DNA from: Sandarakinorhabdus cyanobacteriorum
Lineage (GTDB): Bacteria > Pseudomonadota > Alphaproteobacteria > Sphingomonadales > Sphingomonadaceae
DNA length: 51,060 nt
Direction of reading: 5' to 3'
Assembly (NCBI RefSeq): GCF_002251755.1
Contig: NZ_NOXT01000101.1
Location: 1-51,060, forward strand
The translations under genes and the position numbers were made by a program. Under the pieces are notes generated by a model. It was given only the letters and a program-made list of their open reading frames with translations. It did not search any database and had not been told where the DNA came from. Shown here piece by piece: positions 9,576 through 21,965 of this stretch (positions are counted from its first letter, which is position 1; every line of letters starts with the position of its first letter).

Positions 9576-10505
9576 ATGAAGCTGATCATGCACGGGGACG
9601 CGCTGCCCGGCGATTTGCGCGGCGCCATCGTGGCGCTGGGCAATTTCGATGGCTTTCACGCCGGCCACCAGGCCGTGGTGGGTGCCGCGCGCGATTGGGC
9701 GCGAAAACTGGGCCGGCCGACGCTGGTCGCCAGTTTCGATCCGCACCCGGCCCGGCTGTTCCAGCCCGATGTGGCGCCGTTCGGCCTGTCCACCATTGCC
9801 CAGCGGGAACGCTGGCTCGGCAATTTCGGCATGGACGGGCTGGTGATGATCCCGTTCAGCCGCGACCTCGCCGCGCTTTCGGCCGAAGAATTCGTCGATG
9901 AATGGCTGGAGATGCGGATGGGCGTTGCCGGCGTTGTCACCGGCGGCGATTTCACCTTTGGCAAGGGCCGCTCCGGCGATGTGACCGAGTTGGCCCGGCT
10001 CGGCCTGAAGAAGGGCTTTGCCGCCCGCGTTGTTGATCCCGTTGCCGATGCCGGCGGCACCATCAGCTCCACCCGCATCCGCGCCGCGCTGCGCGCCGGG
10101 CAGCCGGGCGTGGCCGGCCAGATGCTCACGCGGCCGTTCACCATTGTTGGCCAGGTCGAACATGGTGCCAAGCTGGGCCGCACCCTGGGCTTTCCCACCG
10201 CCAACCTCACGCTGGGGGATTATGTCCGCCCCGCCTATGGCGTTTATGCGGTGCGCGTGTGGCTGAACGATGGGTCGCGCGTTGATGGTGTCGCCAATCT
10301 TGGCATCCGCCCGATGATCGAGCCGCCGGTGGAGCTGCTGGAAACCTGGCTGATGGACTGGAGCGGCGATCTTTACGGCCAGACCATCGGGGTGGAGCTG
10401 GTGGCGTACCTGCGGCCCGAAATGAAGCTGCCGGGGCTGGAGGCGCTGAAGGCGCAGATTGCGCTCGATGCGGAGAATGCCAGGCGGGTGCTGCGGGGCC
10501 AATAG
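9576..10505 (+). CDS. ribF: Bifunctional riboflavin kinase / FAD synthetase
   Basis: A 309-residue RibF. The N-terminal nucleotidyltransferase domain carries ALGNFDGFHAGHQAVV (about 21-36, the GxFDGxHxGH motif), GGDFTFGKGRSGD and the ISSTRIRAAL segment. The C-terminal flavokinase domain starts with VGQVEHGAKLGRTLGFPTANL and continues through ANLGIRP and LETWLMDW. The enzyme phosphorylates riboflavin to FMN and adenylates it to FAD. The position just before ileS and lspA is a common order in proteobacteria (ribF-ileS-lspA). A palindromic repeat and a 159-base gap separate it from ileS here. Confidence 0.96.
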   Translation: MKLIMHGDALPGDLRGAIVALGNFDGFHAGHQAVVGAARDWARKLGRPTLVASFDPHPARLFQPDVAPFGLSTIAQRERWLGNFGMDGLVMIPFSRDLAALSAEEFVDEWLEMRMGVAGVVTGGDFTFGKGRSGDVTELARLGLKKGFAARVVDPVADAGGTISSTRIRAALRAGQPGVAGQMLTRPFTIVGQVEHGAKLGRTLGFPTANLTLGDYVRPAYGVYAVRVWLNDGSRVDGVANLGIRPMIEPPVELLETWLMDWSGDLYGQTIGVELVAYLRPEMKLPGLEALKAQIALDAENARRVLRGQ

Positions 10506-10615
10506 ATCCTCCCCCTCGGGGGAGGTGGCGCGCGAAGCGCGACGGAGGGGGCCGGCAAGCCCGGTCCTCGCCGCCCCCTCCGCCCTGCGGGCACCTCCCC
10601 CAGAGGGGGAGGATC
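10505..10615. repeat. GC-rich palindromic repeat element (family A, copy 1)
   Basis: A 111-base intergenic element between ribF and ileS. Its ends are inverted (GATCCTCCCCCTC at the left, GAGGGGGAGGATC at the right). Inside it alternates CCTCC and GGAGG blocks that can form local hairpins as well as one long foldback. The right part (from about 10573) recurs almost exactly at 21916-21962. The copy inside ileS (12061-12176) has the same architecture with different internal sequence. Elements of this CCCCTCC/GGAGGGG type are frequent in sphingomonad genomes. Confidence 0.85.
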
Positions 10616-10664
10616 TTTCGTGACGCGTGACAGCGCCGCCCGCTTCCCCTAAAGCCGGGCCATC

Positions 10665-13625
10665 ATGAGCGCGCCCGATTATCGCCCCACCGTCTTCCTG
10701 CCCAAGACCGACTTTCCGATGAAGGCCGGCCTGCCGGAGAAGGAACCGCAGATCCTGGCCAAATGGCAGGCGGCGGACCTTTATGCGCAGCTGCGCGCCG
10801 CGCGTAAGGGCCGGGATAAATTCATCTATCACGATGGCCCCCCCTATGCGAACGGGGACATGCATATCGGCCACGCGCTGAACCATATCCTGAAGGATGC
10901 GGTGGTGCGCACCCAGTCGCTGCTGGGCAAGGATGTGCCCTATGTGCCCGGCTGGGATTGCCACGGCCTGCCGATCGAATGGAAGGTCGAGGAAGCCTAT
11001 CGCGCCAAGAAGCAGAACAAGGACGAGGTGCCGGCGAAGGAATTCCGCGCCGAATGCCGCGCCTATGCCCAGCATTGGGTGAATGTGCAGGCCGGGCAGC
11101 TGCAGCGGCTGGGCATCAATGGTGATTGGAAAAAACCCTATCTCACCATGGACTTCGCCTCGGAAGCGACCATCGTTTCCGAGCTGCTGAAGTTTGCGGA
11201 AAGCGGCCAGCTCTATCGCGGCGCCAAGCCGGTGATGTGGTCCCCGGTGGAAAAGACCGCGCTCGCTGATGCCGAGGTGGAATATCACGACATCACGAGC
11301 ACGCAGATCGACGTGGCGTTCGAGATTGTCGAAGCCCCCAACGCGCCGGAACTGGTGGGGGCCTACGCCGTCATCTGGACGACGACGCCGTGGACCATCC
11401 CGGTGAACCAGGGCATCGCGTATTCCGAAGACGTTGATTACATTTGCGTCGAGCACTTGCATCCAGAATTGATCCAGTCGTCACAGCCTGGCCAAGCTCC
11501 GGCAGCGGGCAAGTCGCTAAAAGAAAGAACGAAGCGGGTGATCGTGGCTGCCGCGCTGCTTGAGCAGATTGCGAAGGAACGAATGCCGCTTGGTCTGAAG
11601 ACTGACCGCGTTTTGTGGCGCGGCAAAGGTGCTGACTTTGCCGGTGCCGTCGCCCGTCACCCGATGCACAAGCTGGGCGGCTTCTTCGCCACGCCGCGCC
11701 CCTTCCTGCCCGGCGATTTCGTCACCACCGACCAGGGCACCGGCCTCGTTCACATGGCGCCCGATCATGGCGAGGATGATTTCGCGCTGTGCAAGGCGCA
11801 TGGCATCAATCCCGTGTTCGCCGTGGAGGCCGATGGCCGTTACCGCGCCGATTGGCTGTGGCTGGGCGGCGAGGCCAAGAATGTCATCAACCCCAATCTC
11901 AATGCGCCCGATGGCCCGATCTGCAGCGATCTGAAGGCCGCCGGTGCGCTGCTCTCGGCCGGGCCGTTCGCGCACAGTTATCCGCACTCCTGGCGGTCCA
12001 AGAAGAAGGTGATCTTCCGCTGCACGCCGCAATGGTTCGTGCCGATGGACAAGCCGATTGGCCCCTCCGTCGCCCTGCGGGCGCCACCTCCCCATCCAAA
12101 GAATGGGGAGGACGTTGCTGTTCCTCCCCAAGCTCCGCTTGGGGAGGGGGACCATGCGCAGCATGGTGGAGGGGCGGACACGCTCCGGGCCCGCGCCCTG
12201 GCCGCCATCGCTGCCACCCACTTCACGCCCGACAAGGGCCGCAACCGCATCGGTTCGATGGTCGAAGGCCGCCCCGATTGGGTGCTGAGCCGCCAGCGCG
12301 CCTGGGGCGTGCCGATCACCCTGTTTGTTGATCGCAAGACCGGCGACTATCTGGTTGATAAATCAATCAATCAAAAGATCATCGAGCGGTTCAAGGCCGA
12401 AGGCGTGGACGCCTGGACGCCGGAGTTCGCACGTGAACTGCTGGGCGACCGGGTCGACCAATATGAGATGATCACCGACATCCTGGACGTGTGGTTCGAC
12501 AGCGGTTGCACCCACGCCTATGTGCTCGAATCTGGCCGCTGGCCGGAATATTCGTGGCCGGCCGATCTCTATCTGGAAGGCAGTGACCAGCATCGCGGCT
12601 GGTTCCAATCCAGCCTGCTGCAAAGCTGCGCCACCCGTGGCCGTGCGCCCTACAAGGCGATCCTGACCCATGGTTTCACCATGGATGCGTCGGGCCGGAA
12701 GATGTCGAAGTCGGAAGGCAATGTCATCAATCCGCTGGACGTGATGAAGACGTTCGGCGCCGATATCCTGCGGCTGTGGGCGCTCTCGGTCGATTTCACC
12801 GAGGATCACCGCATCGGCGATGAGATCCTGAAGGGCGTGGCGGACCAGTATCGCAAGCTCCGCAACACCTTCCGCTATCTGCTGGGCGCGCTGGATGGCT
12901 TCAGCGACGCCGAACGCCTGCCGGTGGCCGAGATGCCGGCGCTGGAACGCTGGGTGCTGCACCGGCTGGCCGTGCTGTCAGGCGAGTTGAAGGCGGCGGT
13001 GAACGCCTATGATTTCAACCGCTACACCAGCCTGATCAATGATTTCGTCCAGAACGACCTGTCCGCCTTTGCCATGGATGTGCGCAAGGACAGCCTTTAT
13101 TGCGACGCGCCGACCGCCCCCACCCGCCGGGCCTGGCGCACCGTGCTGGATATCGTCTTCCACGCCCTCACCCGCTGGCTTGCCCCGGTGCTGGTGTTCA
13201 CGGCGGAAGAAGTGTGGGCCACCCGCTATCCCGACGCCCAATCCGTGCACCTGCTGGAATGGCCGGAGATTGATGCGGCCTGGCAGGATGCCGCGCTCGA
13301 CAAGCAGTTCACACTCGCCCGCAAGTTGCGCGAGGAAGCCTATCTGAAACTTGAGGAATTGCGCCGCGCCAGGAAGGTGGGCAGTTTCCTGGAAGCCCGC
13401 GTCGCCATCACCACCGCCCATAGCGATCGCATTGCTGCGCTGGCTGGGCTCGATCTGGCCGAACTGCTGCTGGTGGCCGAGGTGGCGATCACCGCCGGCG
13501 ACACCGAAAGCCTGATGGTGGAGAAGGCTGATCTGGCCAAATGTGCCCGCTGCTGGCGCCACCTGCCCGATGTGAACGCCGAAACCGAGCTGTGCGGCCG
13601 CTGCGATGCGGTGGTGCATGGTTAA
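10665..13625 (+). CDS. ileS: Isoleucyl-tRNA synthetase with a repeat-derived internal insertion
   Basis: A 986-residue class I aminoacyl-tRNA synthetase that charges tRNA-Ile. HIGH is at 67-70 and KMSKS at 679-683. The editing domain lies between them, the anticodon-binding domain follows, and the C-terminal zinc finger is CARCWRHLPDVNAETELCGRC. It is about 50 residues longer than E. coli IleRS (938). Residues about 466-504 are encoded by a palindromic repeat (12061-12176) that keeps the frame open, placed in a loop between WFVPMDKP and LRARALAAI. A second unusual stretch at about 11440-11635 lies within the editing domain and has markedly lower G+C (about 57% by hand count of 180 bases). Reading frame and all catalytic motifs are intact, so I expect it to be functional. 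This start gives the usual N-terminus (DYRPTVFLPKTDFPMKAGLP). Confidence 0.96.
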   Translation: MSAPDYRPTVFLPKTDFPMKAGLPEKEPQILAKWQAADLYAQLRAARKGRDKFIYHDGPPYANGDMHIGHALNHILKDAVVRTQSLLGKDVPYVPGWDCHGLPIEWKVEEAYRAKKQNKDEVPAKEFRAECRAYAQHWVNVQAGQLQRLGINGDWKKPYLTMDFASEATIVSELLKFAESGQLYRGAKPVMWSPVEKTALADAEVEYHDITSTQIDVAFEIVEAPNAPELVGAYAVIWTTTPWTIPVNQGIAYSEDVDYICVEHLHPELIQSSQPGQAPAAGKSLKERTKRVIVAAALLEQIAKERMPLGLKTDRVLWRGKGADFAGAVARHPMHKLGGFFATPRPFLPGDFVTTDQGTGLVHMAPDHGEDDFALCKAHGINPVFAVEADGRYRADWLWLGGEAKNVINPNLNAPDGPICSDLKAAGALLSAGPFAHSYPHSWRSKKKVIFRCTPQWFVPMDKPIGPSVALRAPPPHPKNGEDVAVPPQAPLGEGDHAQHGGGADTLRARALAAIAATHFTPDKGRNRIGSMVEGRPDWVLSRQRAWGVPITLFVDRKTGDYLVDKSINQKIIERFKAEGVDAWTPEFARELLGDRVDQYEMITDILDVWFDSGCTHAYVLESGRWPEYSWPADLYLEGSDQHRGWFQSSLLQSCATRGRAPYKAILTHGFTMDASGRKMSKSEGNVINPLDVMKTFGADILRLWALSVDFTEDHRIGDEILKGVADQYRKLRNTFRYLLGALDGFSDAERLPVAEMPALERWVLHRLAVLSGELKAAVNAYDFNRYTSLINDFVQNDLSAFAMDVRKDSLYCDAPTAPTRRAWRTVLDIVFHALTRWLAPVLVFTAEEVWATRYPDAQSVHLLEWPEIDAAWQDAALDKQFTLARKLREEAYLKLEELRRARKVGSFLEARVAITTAHSDRIAALAGLDLAELLLVAEVAITAGDTESLMVEKADLAKCARCWRHLPDVNAETELCGRCDAVVHG
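12061..12176. repeat. Palindromic repeat element inserted in frame inside ileS (family A, copy 2)
   Basis: The segment has inverted outer arms (GCCCCTCCGTCGCCC at the left; GGTGGAGGGGCGG at the right). Inner hairpins are CCTCCCCATCC/GGGGAGGA and CCTCCCCAAGC/GCTTGGGGAGG. This is the same design as the intergenic copy at 10505-10615. It contains no stop in the ileS frame and adds about 39 residues rich in Pro, Gly and Ala. Conserved IleRS sequence flanks it tightly on both sides. Confidence 0.85.
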
Positions 13626-18277: not shown

Positions 18278-18964
18278 ATGCGCATGCGTGATCTGGAAAA
18301 GGCCAGCGGGGTCGGGCGGGAGACCATCCGCTATTATATCCGCGAAGGCCTGTTGCCCGAGCCGGACAAGGCCAGCCGCAACAGTGCGCGCTATTCCGAT
18401 GTGCATGTGGCGCGGCTGAAGGCGATCAAGCGCCTGCAGGAAGAGCGCTTCCTGCCACTGGCCGTGATCCGCGAGCTGCTGGAGGCGGAGGATGGCAACC
18501 GCTGGCTGTTGCCCGATGCCTTTCCGATGCTGGACGCGCTGCTGGCCCAGCGGCTGGAGGAGGCCGGCCCGGCGCGGGTGGCGCTGGCCGATCTGGGTGT
18601 GCCGGACCATCAGCGCGAGCATCTGGATGATCTGATGATCAGCGTGGCTGATGATGGCACGGTGTCGGCACGCGATGCCGCCATCCTGCGCACCGTCGGC
18701 CGGCTGGACGAGATTGGCTTCCGGCCGGAACTGGGCTTCAACGATGGCCAGATGCGGCTCTATCATGTGCTGATCGATTGGCTGACCAACCAGGAAATCC
18801 GGCATTTCCTGGAACATACCGCCGGCCAGGTGGGCGAGGCCAAGGCGCTGGACATGGCCGAACAGGGCATCGCCCTGATCAACGAGTTGCTGGGCCAGTT
18901 GCGCACCCGCGCCCTGTTGAAGAAACTGGCGGAGCGCCGCCGCATCGCCAACGACAATGGTTGA
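18278..18964 (+). CDS. MerR-family transcriptional regulator
   Basis: A 228-residue regulator. The N-terminal winged helix-turn-helix is clear: MRMRDLEKASGVGRETIRYY, IREGLLPEPDKASRNSARYS and a recognition wing, then a helix (LKAIKRLQEERFLPLAVIREL). The long C-terminal half (about 100-228) has no metal-binding Cys cluster and looks like an effector-binding or dimerisation region of unknown ligand. AAGGCGAGA precedes the ATG. The 3' end overlaps the TIR/TPR gene by eight bases, so both are translated from one transcript; the regulator may control this operon and the divergent ligase. Confidence 0.88.
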   Translation: MRMRDLEKASGVGRETIRYYIREGLLPEPDKASRNSARYSDVHVARLKAIKRLQEERFLPLAVIRELLEAEDGNRWLLPDAFPMLDALLAQRLEEAGPARVALADLGVPDHQREHLDDLMISVADDGTVSARDAAILRTVGRLDEIGFRPELGFNDGQMRLYHVLIDWLTNQEIRHFLEHTAGQVGEAKALDMAEQGIALINELLGQLRTRALLKKLAERRRIANDNG

Positions 18965-20915
18965 CGGCACCGCTTCGCCGGCAACGACGAGCGGGCCGAG
19001 CCTGTTTGTCAGCCATGCCAGTGCTGATGCCGATGCGGCGCGGCGGCTGGTGGTGGCGCTGGAGGCGGCCGGCTGCACCGTGTGGTGGGACGGCATGCTG
19101 ACGGCCGGCGAGGCGTTTCAGACCAGCATCGAGACCGCGCTTGCCCGGGTGGACGCCGTGATCGTGTTGTGGAGTGCGGCGGCCAATGACAGCCATTGGG
19201 TGCGCGACGAGGCGGCGGTGGGGCGGGATCGTGGGCGGCTGGTGCCGTTGAGCCTGGATGGCGGCCTGCCGCCGCTGGGGTTCCGGCAGCTGCATGTGAT
19301 TGATTTCAGCCACTGGAACGGCAAGGCGGATGCCGCCCCGTTCCAGCAGCTGCTGGCTGGTGTGGCGGCGGTGGCAGGGCGGGCGGTTTCGGCGCCGGTG
19401 AAGCAGGTGGCGGGCGCAACCGGCCCGCGCACCGGGATTGATCGGCGCTGGCTGCTGGGCGGCGGCGTCGGGCTGGCGGCGGCCGCTGCTGGCGGCTGGG
19501 CCATCTGGCGGCAATCGCCGGCACAAGCCCAGGGCAGCATCGCCGTGCTGCCGTTCCGCAACCTGTCGGGGCGCGACGAGGAGGATTATTTCGCCGAAGG
19601 CCTGGCCGAAGAGCTGCGCACCACCCTGGCGCTCAATCGGCAACTGCTGGTATCGGGCGCGGCATCGGCGGGCGGGTTCAGGCAGAGCGATGCCGATCCG
19701 CGCCAGATCGCGAAGGCACTGGGCGTTTCCAGCCTGTTGATGGGCACGGTGCGGCCGGCGGCCGGGCGGGTGCGGATCGCGGTGCGCCTGGTGGATGGCA
19801 GCACCGGGCTGGAGCGCTGGAGCCAGAGTTTCGATCGGGTGGCCGCCGATGTGCTGGCCGTGCAGGCGGAGATCGCCACCACGGTCGCAGATGCGTTGAT
19901 TTCGAGCCTGGCGCAGGCGGATGGCTGGCAGGCCCGGCGGCCGGGCGCAACCAGGAACAGCGCCGCCTTTGATCATTATCTGAAGGGCCAGGCGCTGTAT
20001 CAATCGGCGGCCAGCGATGCCAGCGACCGCGCCGCCCTGGCCGAGTATGATGCCGCCATTGCCGCCGATGCCCGTTATGGCGCGGCCCATGCCGCCCGGT
20101 CGCGCTGCCTGGTGACGATTGCCAACAACAGCAATGATGCCGATGCGGCTGCCCGGTTGCGGGCGCAGGCGCTGTCGGGCGCGCGCCAGGCCATCGCGCT
20201 GGCGCCCGATATGGCGGAAGGCCATGCCGCGCTGGGCTATCTGCTGTCGAGCCAGCTTGATCTGGCGGCGGCGCGCGATCCTTATCGCCGGGCGCTGGAA
20301 CTGGGGCTGGGCAATGCGCCGATCCTGGCCGGCTGCGCCGAATTTCTGGGCCAGATGGGCGATTTCGCCACCGCCCGCACCGCCGTGGCGCGCGCCGCGC
20401 TGCTGGATCCGCTCAACCCGCGCGTGTTCCGCAGCAAGGGCGTGATCGAATATGGCGCCCGCGCCTGGGCCGAGGCCGCTTCGGCCTTTGGCGCCGTGCT
20501 GCGGCTGCAGCCGGATATGGACACGGTGCACAGCCTGATGGGCGACATGGCGCTGGCGCAGGGCGATCTGGCCGGCGCACGGCGGCATTACAGCGCCGAA
20601 CAGGGTCGGGTGAGCCGGCTGCGCAGCCTGGCGATCATCGATGGCCGCACAGCGGGTCGGGCGGCCGGCGAAGTGCATCTGGCGCGGTTGACGGCGGAAT
20701 TTGGCGACGCAGTGGCCTTTCAGCGGGCCGAGGTGCTGGCGCAGTGGGGCGAGCGCGATGCGGCGCTGGCCAGCCTGGAACTGGCCTTGCAGCAGCGGGA
20801 TTCGGGCCTGATCCTGGCTGCGCATGATCCGATGCTGGACCCGGTGCGGGACGATCCCCGCTTTGTGGCGGTGCTGCGCGCGATCGGTGCGCCGGAGACG
20901 GTTGGACAGGTCTGA
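18957..20915 (+). CDS. TIR-domain, membrane-spanning, TolB-like/TPR protein
   Basis: A 652-residue protein with three parts. Residues about 14-140 form a TIR domain: SLFVSHASADADAARRLVVAL, CTVWWDGMLTAGE, DAVIVLWSAAANDSHWVRDE. E85 in SHWVRDE is at the place of the catalytic Glu of NAD-cleaving TIR domains. A single hydrophobic segment lies at about 166-184. From 194 a TolB/FlgO-like module begins (SIAVLPFRNLSGRDEEDYFAEGLAEEL), followed by tetratricopeptide-like helices (about 325-640). This CadC/adenylate-cyclase-like layout puts the TIR domain in the cytoplasm and the TPR part in the periplasm. It overlaps the merR gene. A signalling role or NADase activity is inference. Confidence 0.82.
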   Translation: MVDGTASPATTSGPSLFVSHASADADAARRLVVALEAAGCTVWWDGMLTAGEAFQTSIETALARVDAVIVLWSAAANDSHWVRDEAAVGRDRGRLVPLSLDGGLPPLGFRQLHVIDFSHWNGKADAAPFQQLLAGVAAVAGRAVSAPVKQVAGATGPRTGIDRRWLLGGGVGLAAAAAGGWAIWRQSPAQAQGSIAVLPFRNLSGRDEEDYFAEGLAEELRTTLALNRQLLVSGAASAGGFRQSDADPRQIAKALGVSSLLMGTVRPAAGRVRIAVRLVDGSTGLERWSQSFDRVAADVLAVQAEIATTVADALISSLAQADGWQARRPGATRNSAAFDHYLKGQALYQSAASDASDRAALAEYDAAIAADARYGAAHAARSRCLVTIANNSNDADAAARLRAQALSGARQAIALAPDMAEGHAALGYLLSSQLDLAAARDPYRRALELGLGNAPILAGCAEFLGQMGDFATARTAVARAALLDPLNPRVFRSKGVIEYGARAWAEAASAFGAVLRLQPDMDTVHSLMGDMALAQGDLAGARRHYSAEQGRVSRLRSLAIIDGRTAGRAAGEVHLARLTAEFGDAVAFQRAEVLAQWGERDAALASLELALQQRDSGLILAAHDPMLDPVRDDPRFVAVLRAIGAPETVGQV

Positions 20916-21847: not shown

Positions 21848-21915
21848 GGGTGTTTCGGCATTAGCGGCGGAAGATGCCCGCTGGGCAGAGGGGATAGTCA
21901 GGCATGGTCCTGGCC

Positions 21916-21962
21916 GGCCCCCTCCGCCTCGCGCTGCTCGGCACCTCCCCCAGAGGGGGAGG
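21916..21962. repeat. Half of a family-A palindromic repeat (copy 3)
   Basis: The stretch CCCCCTCCGCC...GGCACCTCCCCCAGAGGGGGAGGAT matches the right half of the element at 10505-10615 almost base for base. The left half is missing. It sits between the convergent AsnC and BNR-protein genes, three bases from the BNR stop, where its hairpin could serve as a transcript end. Confidence 0.8.
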
Positions 21963-21965
21963 ATT

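Follow-up and report, generated by a model that had tools for sequence, protein, structure and literature searches.

The ileS gene of Sandarakinorhabdus cyanobacteriorum, which encodes isoleucyl-tRNA synthetase (IleRS), carries a palindromic repeat within its reading frame, in a loop where some other members of the Sphingomonadales and their neighbours carry different repeats. The gene lies in a stretch of 51,060 nucleotides (contig NZ_NOXT01000101.1, forward strand, genome G000) that is called the window throughout; the loci and genomes used for comparison are given by L and G numbers. The repeat is very probably one copy of a dispersed element resembling the repetitive extragenic palindromic (REP) sequences, which entered a permissive loop of ileS by chance and in frame, and which survives in such a place where the added peptide is harmless. 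The new aspect is that one loop of one essential enzyme is repeatedly filled by different repeats.

The product of ileS matches TIGR00392, the NCBIfam profile for isoleucine--tRNA ligase, at 782.6 bits (cut-off 621.4), and HIGH, KMSKS and the C-terminal cysteine pairs are all found in its sequence. The features of the gene and its element are as follows:

10665–13625, plus strand: ileS, isoleucyl-tRNA synthetase, 986 amino acids (stop-free open reading frame (ORF) and TIGR00392 match)
12058–12178, plus strand: palindromic element in the ileS frame (own-genome copies, fold and the short loop in L053)
12062–12093, plus strand: first arm, CCTCCGTC with a short hairpin and GCCACCTCCCC (the part matched most often)
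12087–12111, plus strand: hairpin CCTCCCCAT...ATGGGGAGG (repeat comparison and fold)
12123–12147, plus strand: hairpin CCTCCCCAAGC...GCTTGGGGAGG with an 11-bp stem, within the second arm (repeat comparison and fold)
12152–12166, plus strand: hairpin CCATGCGCAGCATGG, within the second arm (fold)

The element shares the frame of ileS over about codons 465–505, and the ORF is free of stops across it, much as the first-pass annotation had proposed when it placed an in-frame, stop-free element at residues of about 466–504. With its edges the element makes up loop residues 463–506, KPIGPSVALRAPPPHPKNGEDVAVPPQAPLGEGDHAQHGGGADT. Stops are absent from all six frames of the 121-base insert. Folded as RNA, positions 12058–12178 give nested hairpins at −76.8 kcal/mol (z score −4.98), and none of 200 shuffles was equally low. 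Among the seven IleRS matches listed for G000 there is one full-length ileS, the match listed second being only 27% identical. Because the only full-length ileS among the matches listed carries the insert, the peptide is presumably tolerated in this essential enzyme, as had been suggested from the window alone.

The first-pass annotation had also called for a genome-wide search for the element, and this search bears it out. The element has at least 49 matches in G000 at E ≤ 1e-3, grouped into 40 sites; 40 of 106 first-look candidates were scored, and codon usage in the two flanks of each site was assessed with a model built from the ORFs of the window. The family is dispersed through the genome, mostly outside genes. 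One stop-free coding frame continues across the repeat at three of the 40 sites, once in ileS and twice in mutS, and no other gene among the 40 sites was found with a copy in frame. The mutS inserts are half-elements at two separate places (contig C63, positions 18604–18662 and 19367–19422; L194); the identity of MutS was assigned by profile, and both inserts sit at gaps in the alignment with solved MutS. For the remaining 37 sites, 16 could be assigned by flank coding (score of at least 0.2 on both sides), with nine between convergent and seven between co-directional genes and none between divergent ones in a count by eye, while 20 could not be assigned and the spacer copy upstream of ileS was without a locus.

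The peptides from the two mutS inserts are VPPQALPGEGDRAQHGGGA and KGPPHSLNGEGDRRNGGGGA, near VPPQAPLGEGDHAQHGGGA in IleRS, and the frame of the arm is the same at the DNA level. Three of the four coding arms in G000 (the second IleRS arm and both MutS arms) share this frame, and the first IleRS arm is read from the opposite strand relative to the others. G010 has 37 sites of its family (five without a locus, ileS being among these five), with in-frame copies in ileS, uvrA and the gene for pyruvate dehydrogenase E1 beta, and the IleRS, UvrA and PdhB peptides use one common frame of the repeat. The L033 insert is also open in all six frames. The coding arms tend to one frame although all six are open, which suggests, on the few cases at hand, that the peptide is filtered. 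In the genome of L067, ten of the sites that match best outside ileS include none in frame. Also in G010, at L199 (positions 993–2039), the repeat fuses a DUF559 ORF and ruvC in a single frame, perhaps as one protein.

The same loop was compared across IleRS from 60 genomes, including that of the window, from the best 80 of 587 named-genome loci and from further stretches, which after de-duplication gave 127 aligned rows from the Sphingomonadales and their neighbours. Distant members of the order have 3 residues between QWF(V/I)PMD and LR..A; the loop ranges from 5 to 52 in the genus of the window and from 5 to 50 elsewhere. Loops with 18 residues or more number 76, and their folding gave a bimodal distribution of z scores, with 18 loops at −12.84 to −3.27, L111 at −1.96 and 57 between −1.86 and 2.35. 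This screen set aside shorter loops and 22 loci, which are second copies of represented genomes except for L144 (loop of 8 residues), and the loop end of L078 was trimmed by hand. L038, L057, L142, L150 and L152 yielded no extracted loop because of another motif, a missing anchor or a gene that is cut or broken; of these, L038 entered the set separately, with an insert that folds at −0.72 kcal/mol per base. In all, a strongly folding, repeat-like insert is found at the QWFVPMD loop in 19 of the 127 rows, with L111 as a further, doubtful case. The inserted peptides vary from 19 to 52 residues and differ in sequence and kind. Many relatives carry long ordinary loops in the same slot, such as the recurring ...WENEGGAINPHEEDLCDAP type. 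Part of an element like that of the window is also seen in the ileS loop of another genus (L152, about positions 1700–1740), with the reading frame broken; the assembly (G030) is listed as 86% complete and 7% contaminated.

By motif, the inserts of the 19 rows fall into four kinds. One has CTCTCCC or CCCTCCC hairpins (L033, L034, L039, L044, L045, L058, L070, L080, L086, L099 and L106), one has the arm seen in the window (L031 and L038), one has CGTCGTCCC (L067 and L074) and one has CTTCGACA (L073, L079 and L081, plus L115, where 28 bases match in reverse orientation). The insert of L111 stands apart from all four. A BLAST comparison of 20 inserts at E ≤ 1e-3 had given seven groups, and the reading of six or seven unrelated groups was reduced to four by the motif check, which joins L038 to the window's arm and L058 to the CTCTCCC type.

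The inserts that were searched are dispersed repeats in their host genomes. With seven inserts as queries, each of 13 genomes that bear an insert yielded between 6 and 103 matches, with the insert of a relative serving as query for L039, L074, L079, L080, L086 and L115; matches on the two strands overlap, hence the smaller number of sites after merging. The L033 insert has 103 matches in G010, and that of L045 has 15 in G009, which merge into 6 sites. With the L034 insert there are 30 matches in G017 (18 sites) and 18 in G012 (12 sites), and with the L073 insert 14 in its own genome (12 sites), 6 in that of L079 (5 sites) and 7 in that of L115 (6 sites). The L067 insert matches 65 times in its own genome and 46 times in that of L074, and the L099 insert 38 times in its own, 7 times in that of L080 and 92 times in that of L086. 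The ordinary loop of L094 served as a control; searched in three genomes, it matched once in each, at ileS itself.

On an IleRS tree of the 127 rows, built with the loop columns removed, presence and absence of the insert require at least 16 changes, 14 of which are forced by branches with a Shimodaira–Hasegawa-like approximate likelihood ratio (SH-aLRT) of at least 95. A variant that counted L057 as a repeat had 20 rows, 17 changes and 13 forced, and the final count, without L057 and with L038, has 19 rows. The tree partner of the window, L053, has the loop RALSADPADT, 10 residues versus 44, at an SH-aLRT of 92, under the line of 95; aligning IleRS from close relatives had been the other check proposed at the outset, and this short loop agrees with an added segment. 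L045 pairs with the insert-free L047 (loop QGEVT, SH-aLRT 99), and L033 pairs with the insert-free L052 (loop AGSPT, SH-aLRT 98). The genomes of these insert-free sisters hold the repeat family of the window, with 22 matches in G015 (L053), 48 in G014 (L047) and 3 in G002 (L052). Inserted loops, like many loops outside the genus, have KP after QWFVPMD.

Several observations weigh against the reading as REP-like repeats inserted by chance. Eleven of the 19 inserts belong to one broad kind, and the tree changes may include losses, not gains alone. Shuffled labels average 18.0 changes, and 32 of 500 shuffles need as few as the observed 16; the scatter of the inserts is thus close to that of labels assigned at random. 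Because KP is present in inserted loops and absent from several short ones, some of the short loops may be secondary deletions. Three sister comparisons made by eye, over diverged flanks, revealed neither an evident target-site duplication nor sharp edges, and true transposition is therefore not demonstrated. The family of the window has no matches in eight of the 13 genomes of the genus that were searched. The Y1 transposase profile PF01797 matched three of 13 genomes and none of the repeat-rich G010, G064 and G067; the usual mover of REPs, the REP-associated tyrosine transposase (RAYT), was thus not found in most, which weakens the idea that it is at work here. In G000 there is one match to PF01797 (36.6 bits, C27:372–701), without a tie to the repeat. 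The genome of L080 (G066) holds only three repeat sites, the ileS copy included, and the search for own-genome copies took in all insert-bearing rows but L038, L044, L058, L070, L081, L106 and the doubtful L111.

In the protein, the loop falls between chain residues 414 and 419 in the solved IleRS structures 8c9e and 8c9f, where it is a turn of a few residues. An AlphaFold model from a 66-row alignment (mean predicted local distance difference test (pLDDT) 83.4, predicted template modelling score 0.76) places the insert between a strand at 450–460 and a helix at 507–517, and it shows the peptide as unstructured, with residues 472–502 below a pLDDT of 50 and predicted to have no secondary structure. 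Residues 188–209, 438–451 and 543–550 are also below 50, so low confidence by itself does not mark the insert out. An earlier model from 25 rows (mean pLDDT 63.5) was poor and was superseded by the 66-row model.

Other accounts of the filled loop fare less well. It is very improbable that the slot is an ordinary hypervariable, GC-rich, low-complexity loop that merely looks palindromic. The slot does vary by ordinary means too, as the long loops of the WENEGGAINPHEEDLCDAP type in many relatives indicate, but the ordinary loop that was tested is single-copy and ordinary loops lack unusual folding, whereas the palindromic loops fold strongly and recur in the genome where searched, as the matches in G000 make plain. 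Collapse of repeats into a coding gene during assembly has next to no probability, even for a repetitive family in a 130-contig assembly: the frame is kept, and misassembly is unlikely because comparable inserts occur in independent assemblies, including those of the named isolates L067, L086, L106 and L115, the first of which has its insert on a 3.66-Mb contig.

The inserts might instead have passed between species by recombination of ileS alleles, with no fresh insertion in each lineage. L067 and L074 have the same insert (93% at the DNA level), yet they are not nearest neighbours on the tree, and L080, beside L067, carries another insert; an exchange of ileS pieces is a possible source of this pattern, and the ordinary WENEGGAIDP loop is scattered too. 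As a general account recombination is improbable, given that the searched inserts have dispersed counterparts in their host genomes and that three sister pairs within the genus differ, with three different inserts. Retention for a function is slightly more improbable: a hairpin in the ileS message would slow the ribosome where the editing and catalytic domains meet, or a disordered peptide would tune the enzyme. Repeated filling of the same loop, strong RNA folding and the preference of coding arms for one frame despite six open ones (the second IleRS arm and both MutS arms in G000, and IleRS, UvrA and PdhB in G010) speak for such a function. Against it, the closest relatives do without the insert, the peptides differ in sequence, in length (19–52 residues) and in kind, the first IleRS arm is read on the opposite strand, and the modelled peptide has no structure.

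Chance insertion of a REP-like repeat into a permissive loop accommodates these observations best. REP-like repeats, each of two inverted arms with hairpins, would spread by some route and land mostly outside genes. One copy would have entered ileS in frame, in the loop that follows the strand ending in QWFVPMD and precedes the helix starting with LRARALAAI. Copies that disrupt the reading frame or the protein fold would be lost and those that fit a permissive loop kept, and the IleRS loop would be a very permissive site that tolerates an unstructured peptide of about 40 residues. Repeats dispersed in the genomes of other sphingomonads would have filled this loop there too, several times over and separately. 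What is seen directly is the element, its copies, its frame, the short loops in sister species and the four repeat kinds in one loop; insertion by mobility or copying, tolerance in place of benefit, and the making of a working protein are inferred.

A stronger claim would be that target preference or selection makes the loop after QWFVPMD a genuine hotspot, which captures palindromes of different origins whose hairpin or peptide is useful; this is unlikely, though it deserves some weight. Smaller versions of such a hotspot may exist. A scan of the IleRS alignment for rare insertions, with inserts at these other sites judged on fold and peptide alone, found repeat-like peptides at about positions 334–342 of the window protein in L102, L158, L121 and L045, four genomes with four different sequences, as well as at about 308–317 in L037 and about 870 in L099. 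The site shared by L102, L158, L121 and L045 lies in the editing domain. Valyl-tRNA synthetase (ValRS), meant as an insert-free control, has palindromic inserts in two of 50 loci (49 genomes), both after ATLGWPD (L265 in G012 and L266 in G024). Across the 27 genomes of the family of the window with retrieved ValRS loci, repeats are present in IleRS loop 1 in seven and in ValRS in two (one-sided Fisher p of 0.07), which falls short of proving that IleRS is hit more often than ValRS. The ValRS gene of G017 is broken by contig ends at the same ATLGWPD site.

The elements have known counterparts. Two of the bacteria concerned, 'E. lithoralis' and S. alaskensis, are both free-living sphingomonads. 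REPs lie within genes of many bacteria, many of them genes for DNA synthesis or repair such as uvrA, and in 'E. lithoralis' and S. alaskensis they also occur in tRNA synthetases (PMC3733652). The elements described here resemble these intragenic GTAG and CGTC REPs in being short palindromes in inverted pairs, sometimes in conserved genes that include synthetases and uvrA (PMC3733652). The pairing of inverted REP units also recalls the system of paired REPs (REPINs) and RAYT (PMC3733652). CGTC REPs are without a dedicated transposase and typical of alphaproteobacteria, which is in line with the scarcity of PF01797, and REPs are found chiefly between convergent or co-directional genes and rarely between divergent ones (PMC3733652), as are the nine, seven and zero of the 16 assignable sites here. 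CGTC precedes the hairpin in 34 of 61 arms, and 27 lack the tag (one pattern, 44 own-genome loci). Unlike the CGTC REP, with a stem of 8–9 bp that starts with A-T and a loop of 4–5 (PMC3733652), stems here are about 3–5 bp by eye, for example GCCC-TGC-GGGC. A shared site is noted in PMC3733652 for recB of two Xanthomonas, where different REPs lie at about one site; in the IleRS set, inserts occupy a single loop in 19 of 127 rows.

Another counterpart is the Rickettsia palindromic element (RPE). RPEs are palindromes of about 105–146 bp, in frame, in conserved proteins and at solvent-exposed places (PMC3767692, PMC2229807), and the present element is like them as a palindrome in frame in a conserved protein, and may also lie at an exposed place; the first-pass annotation had drawn the same likeness, which holds in layout and location. 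As in protein-coding palindromic elements of the RPE type, the DNA is palindromic, dispersed and multi-copy, and it lies in frame in conserved genes; it is missing from ileS of the nearest relative, L053, and the two mutS copies fall at gaps in the alignment with solved MutS. RPE-7 is found in the isoleucyl-tRNA synthetase of Rickettsia (Table 1 of PMC3767692) and in the beta subunit of phenylalanyl-tRNA synthetase (PMC3767692, PMC2229807). For RPE-4, RPE-6 and RPE-7, the Rickettsia japonica study favoured one old diverged insertion and did not rule out hotspots (PMC3767692); unlike that case, the sphingomonads have sisters without inserts, and the kinds differ. A guanylate kinase bearing an RPE is active with changed substrate affinity (PMC2229807), and a similar process has been suggested as possible in other prokaryotes (PMC10969869).

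Intragenic repeats are thus already known from Rickettsia, IleRS included, and from free-living bacteria, sphingomonad synthetases included. The novelty that had been seen in a synthetase of a free-living bacterium is not supported, since PMC3733652 already has sphingomonad synthetases and PMC3767692 the Rickettsia IleRS. No report of repeats in sphingomonad IleRS was found in the literature search, which did not take in the supplement of PMC3733652 that names its synthetases, and the texts consulted gave no sign of a single IleRS loop filled again and again, across an order, by repeats of different kinds. The part of PMC4741004 seen, on a sphingomonad genome, refers for such repeats to clustered regularly interspaced short palindromic repeats alone. 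In the sphingomonad loop, palindromic repeats have time and again supplied an essential enzyme of free-living bacteria with new stretches of protein, and many separate fillings of one loop, with sisters that differ, offer a natural series on the cost of an inserted repeat to an enzyme. They also bear on the Rickettsia question of whether a hotspot of different origins or one old diverged insertion is at work (PMC3767692).

Two further features of the window are related to the element:

10505–10615, plus strand: spacer copy, like the repeat, immediately upstream of ileS (z −7.16 for 10503–10618)
21913–21964, minus strand: partial third relative of the spacer copy (52 bases, 85%)

A search of the window against Rfam at gathering scores gave no matches. 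The first-pass annotation had compared the ileS element with the spacer copy. The comparison stands for a 32-base arm that is 91% alike (12062–12093 against 10550–10519) and for the folding of both into nested hairpins; the remainder of the two sequences differs. An arm like that of the spacer copy lies upstream of ileS in L045 (314–345) and L047 (4390–4423), and the spacer copy looks old and common to relatives, judging from the sequences compared, while the ileS insert does not.

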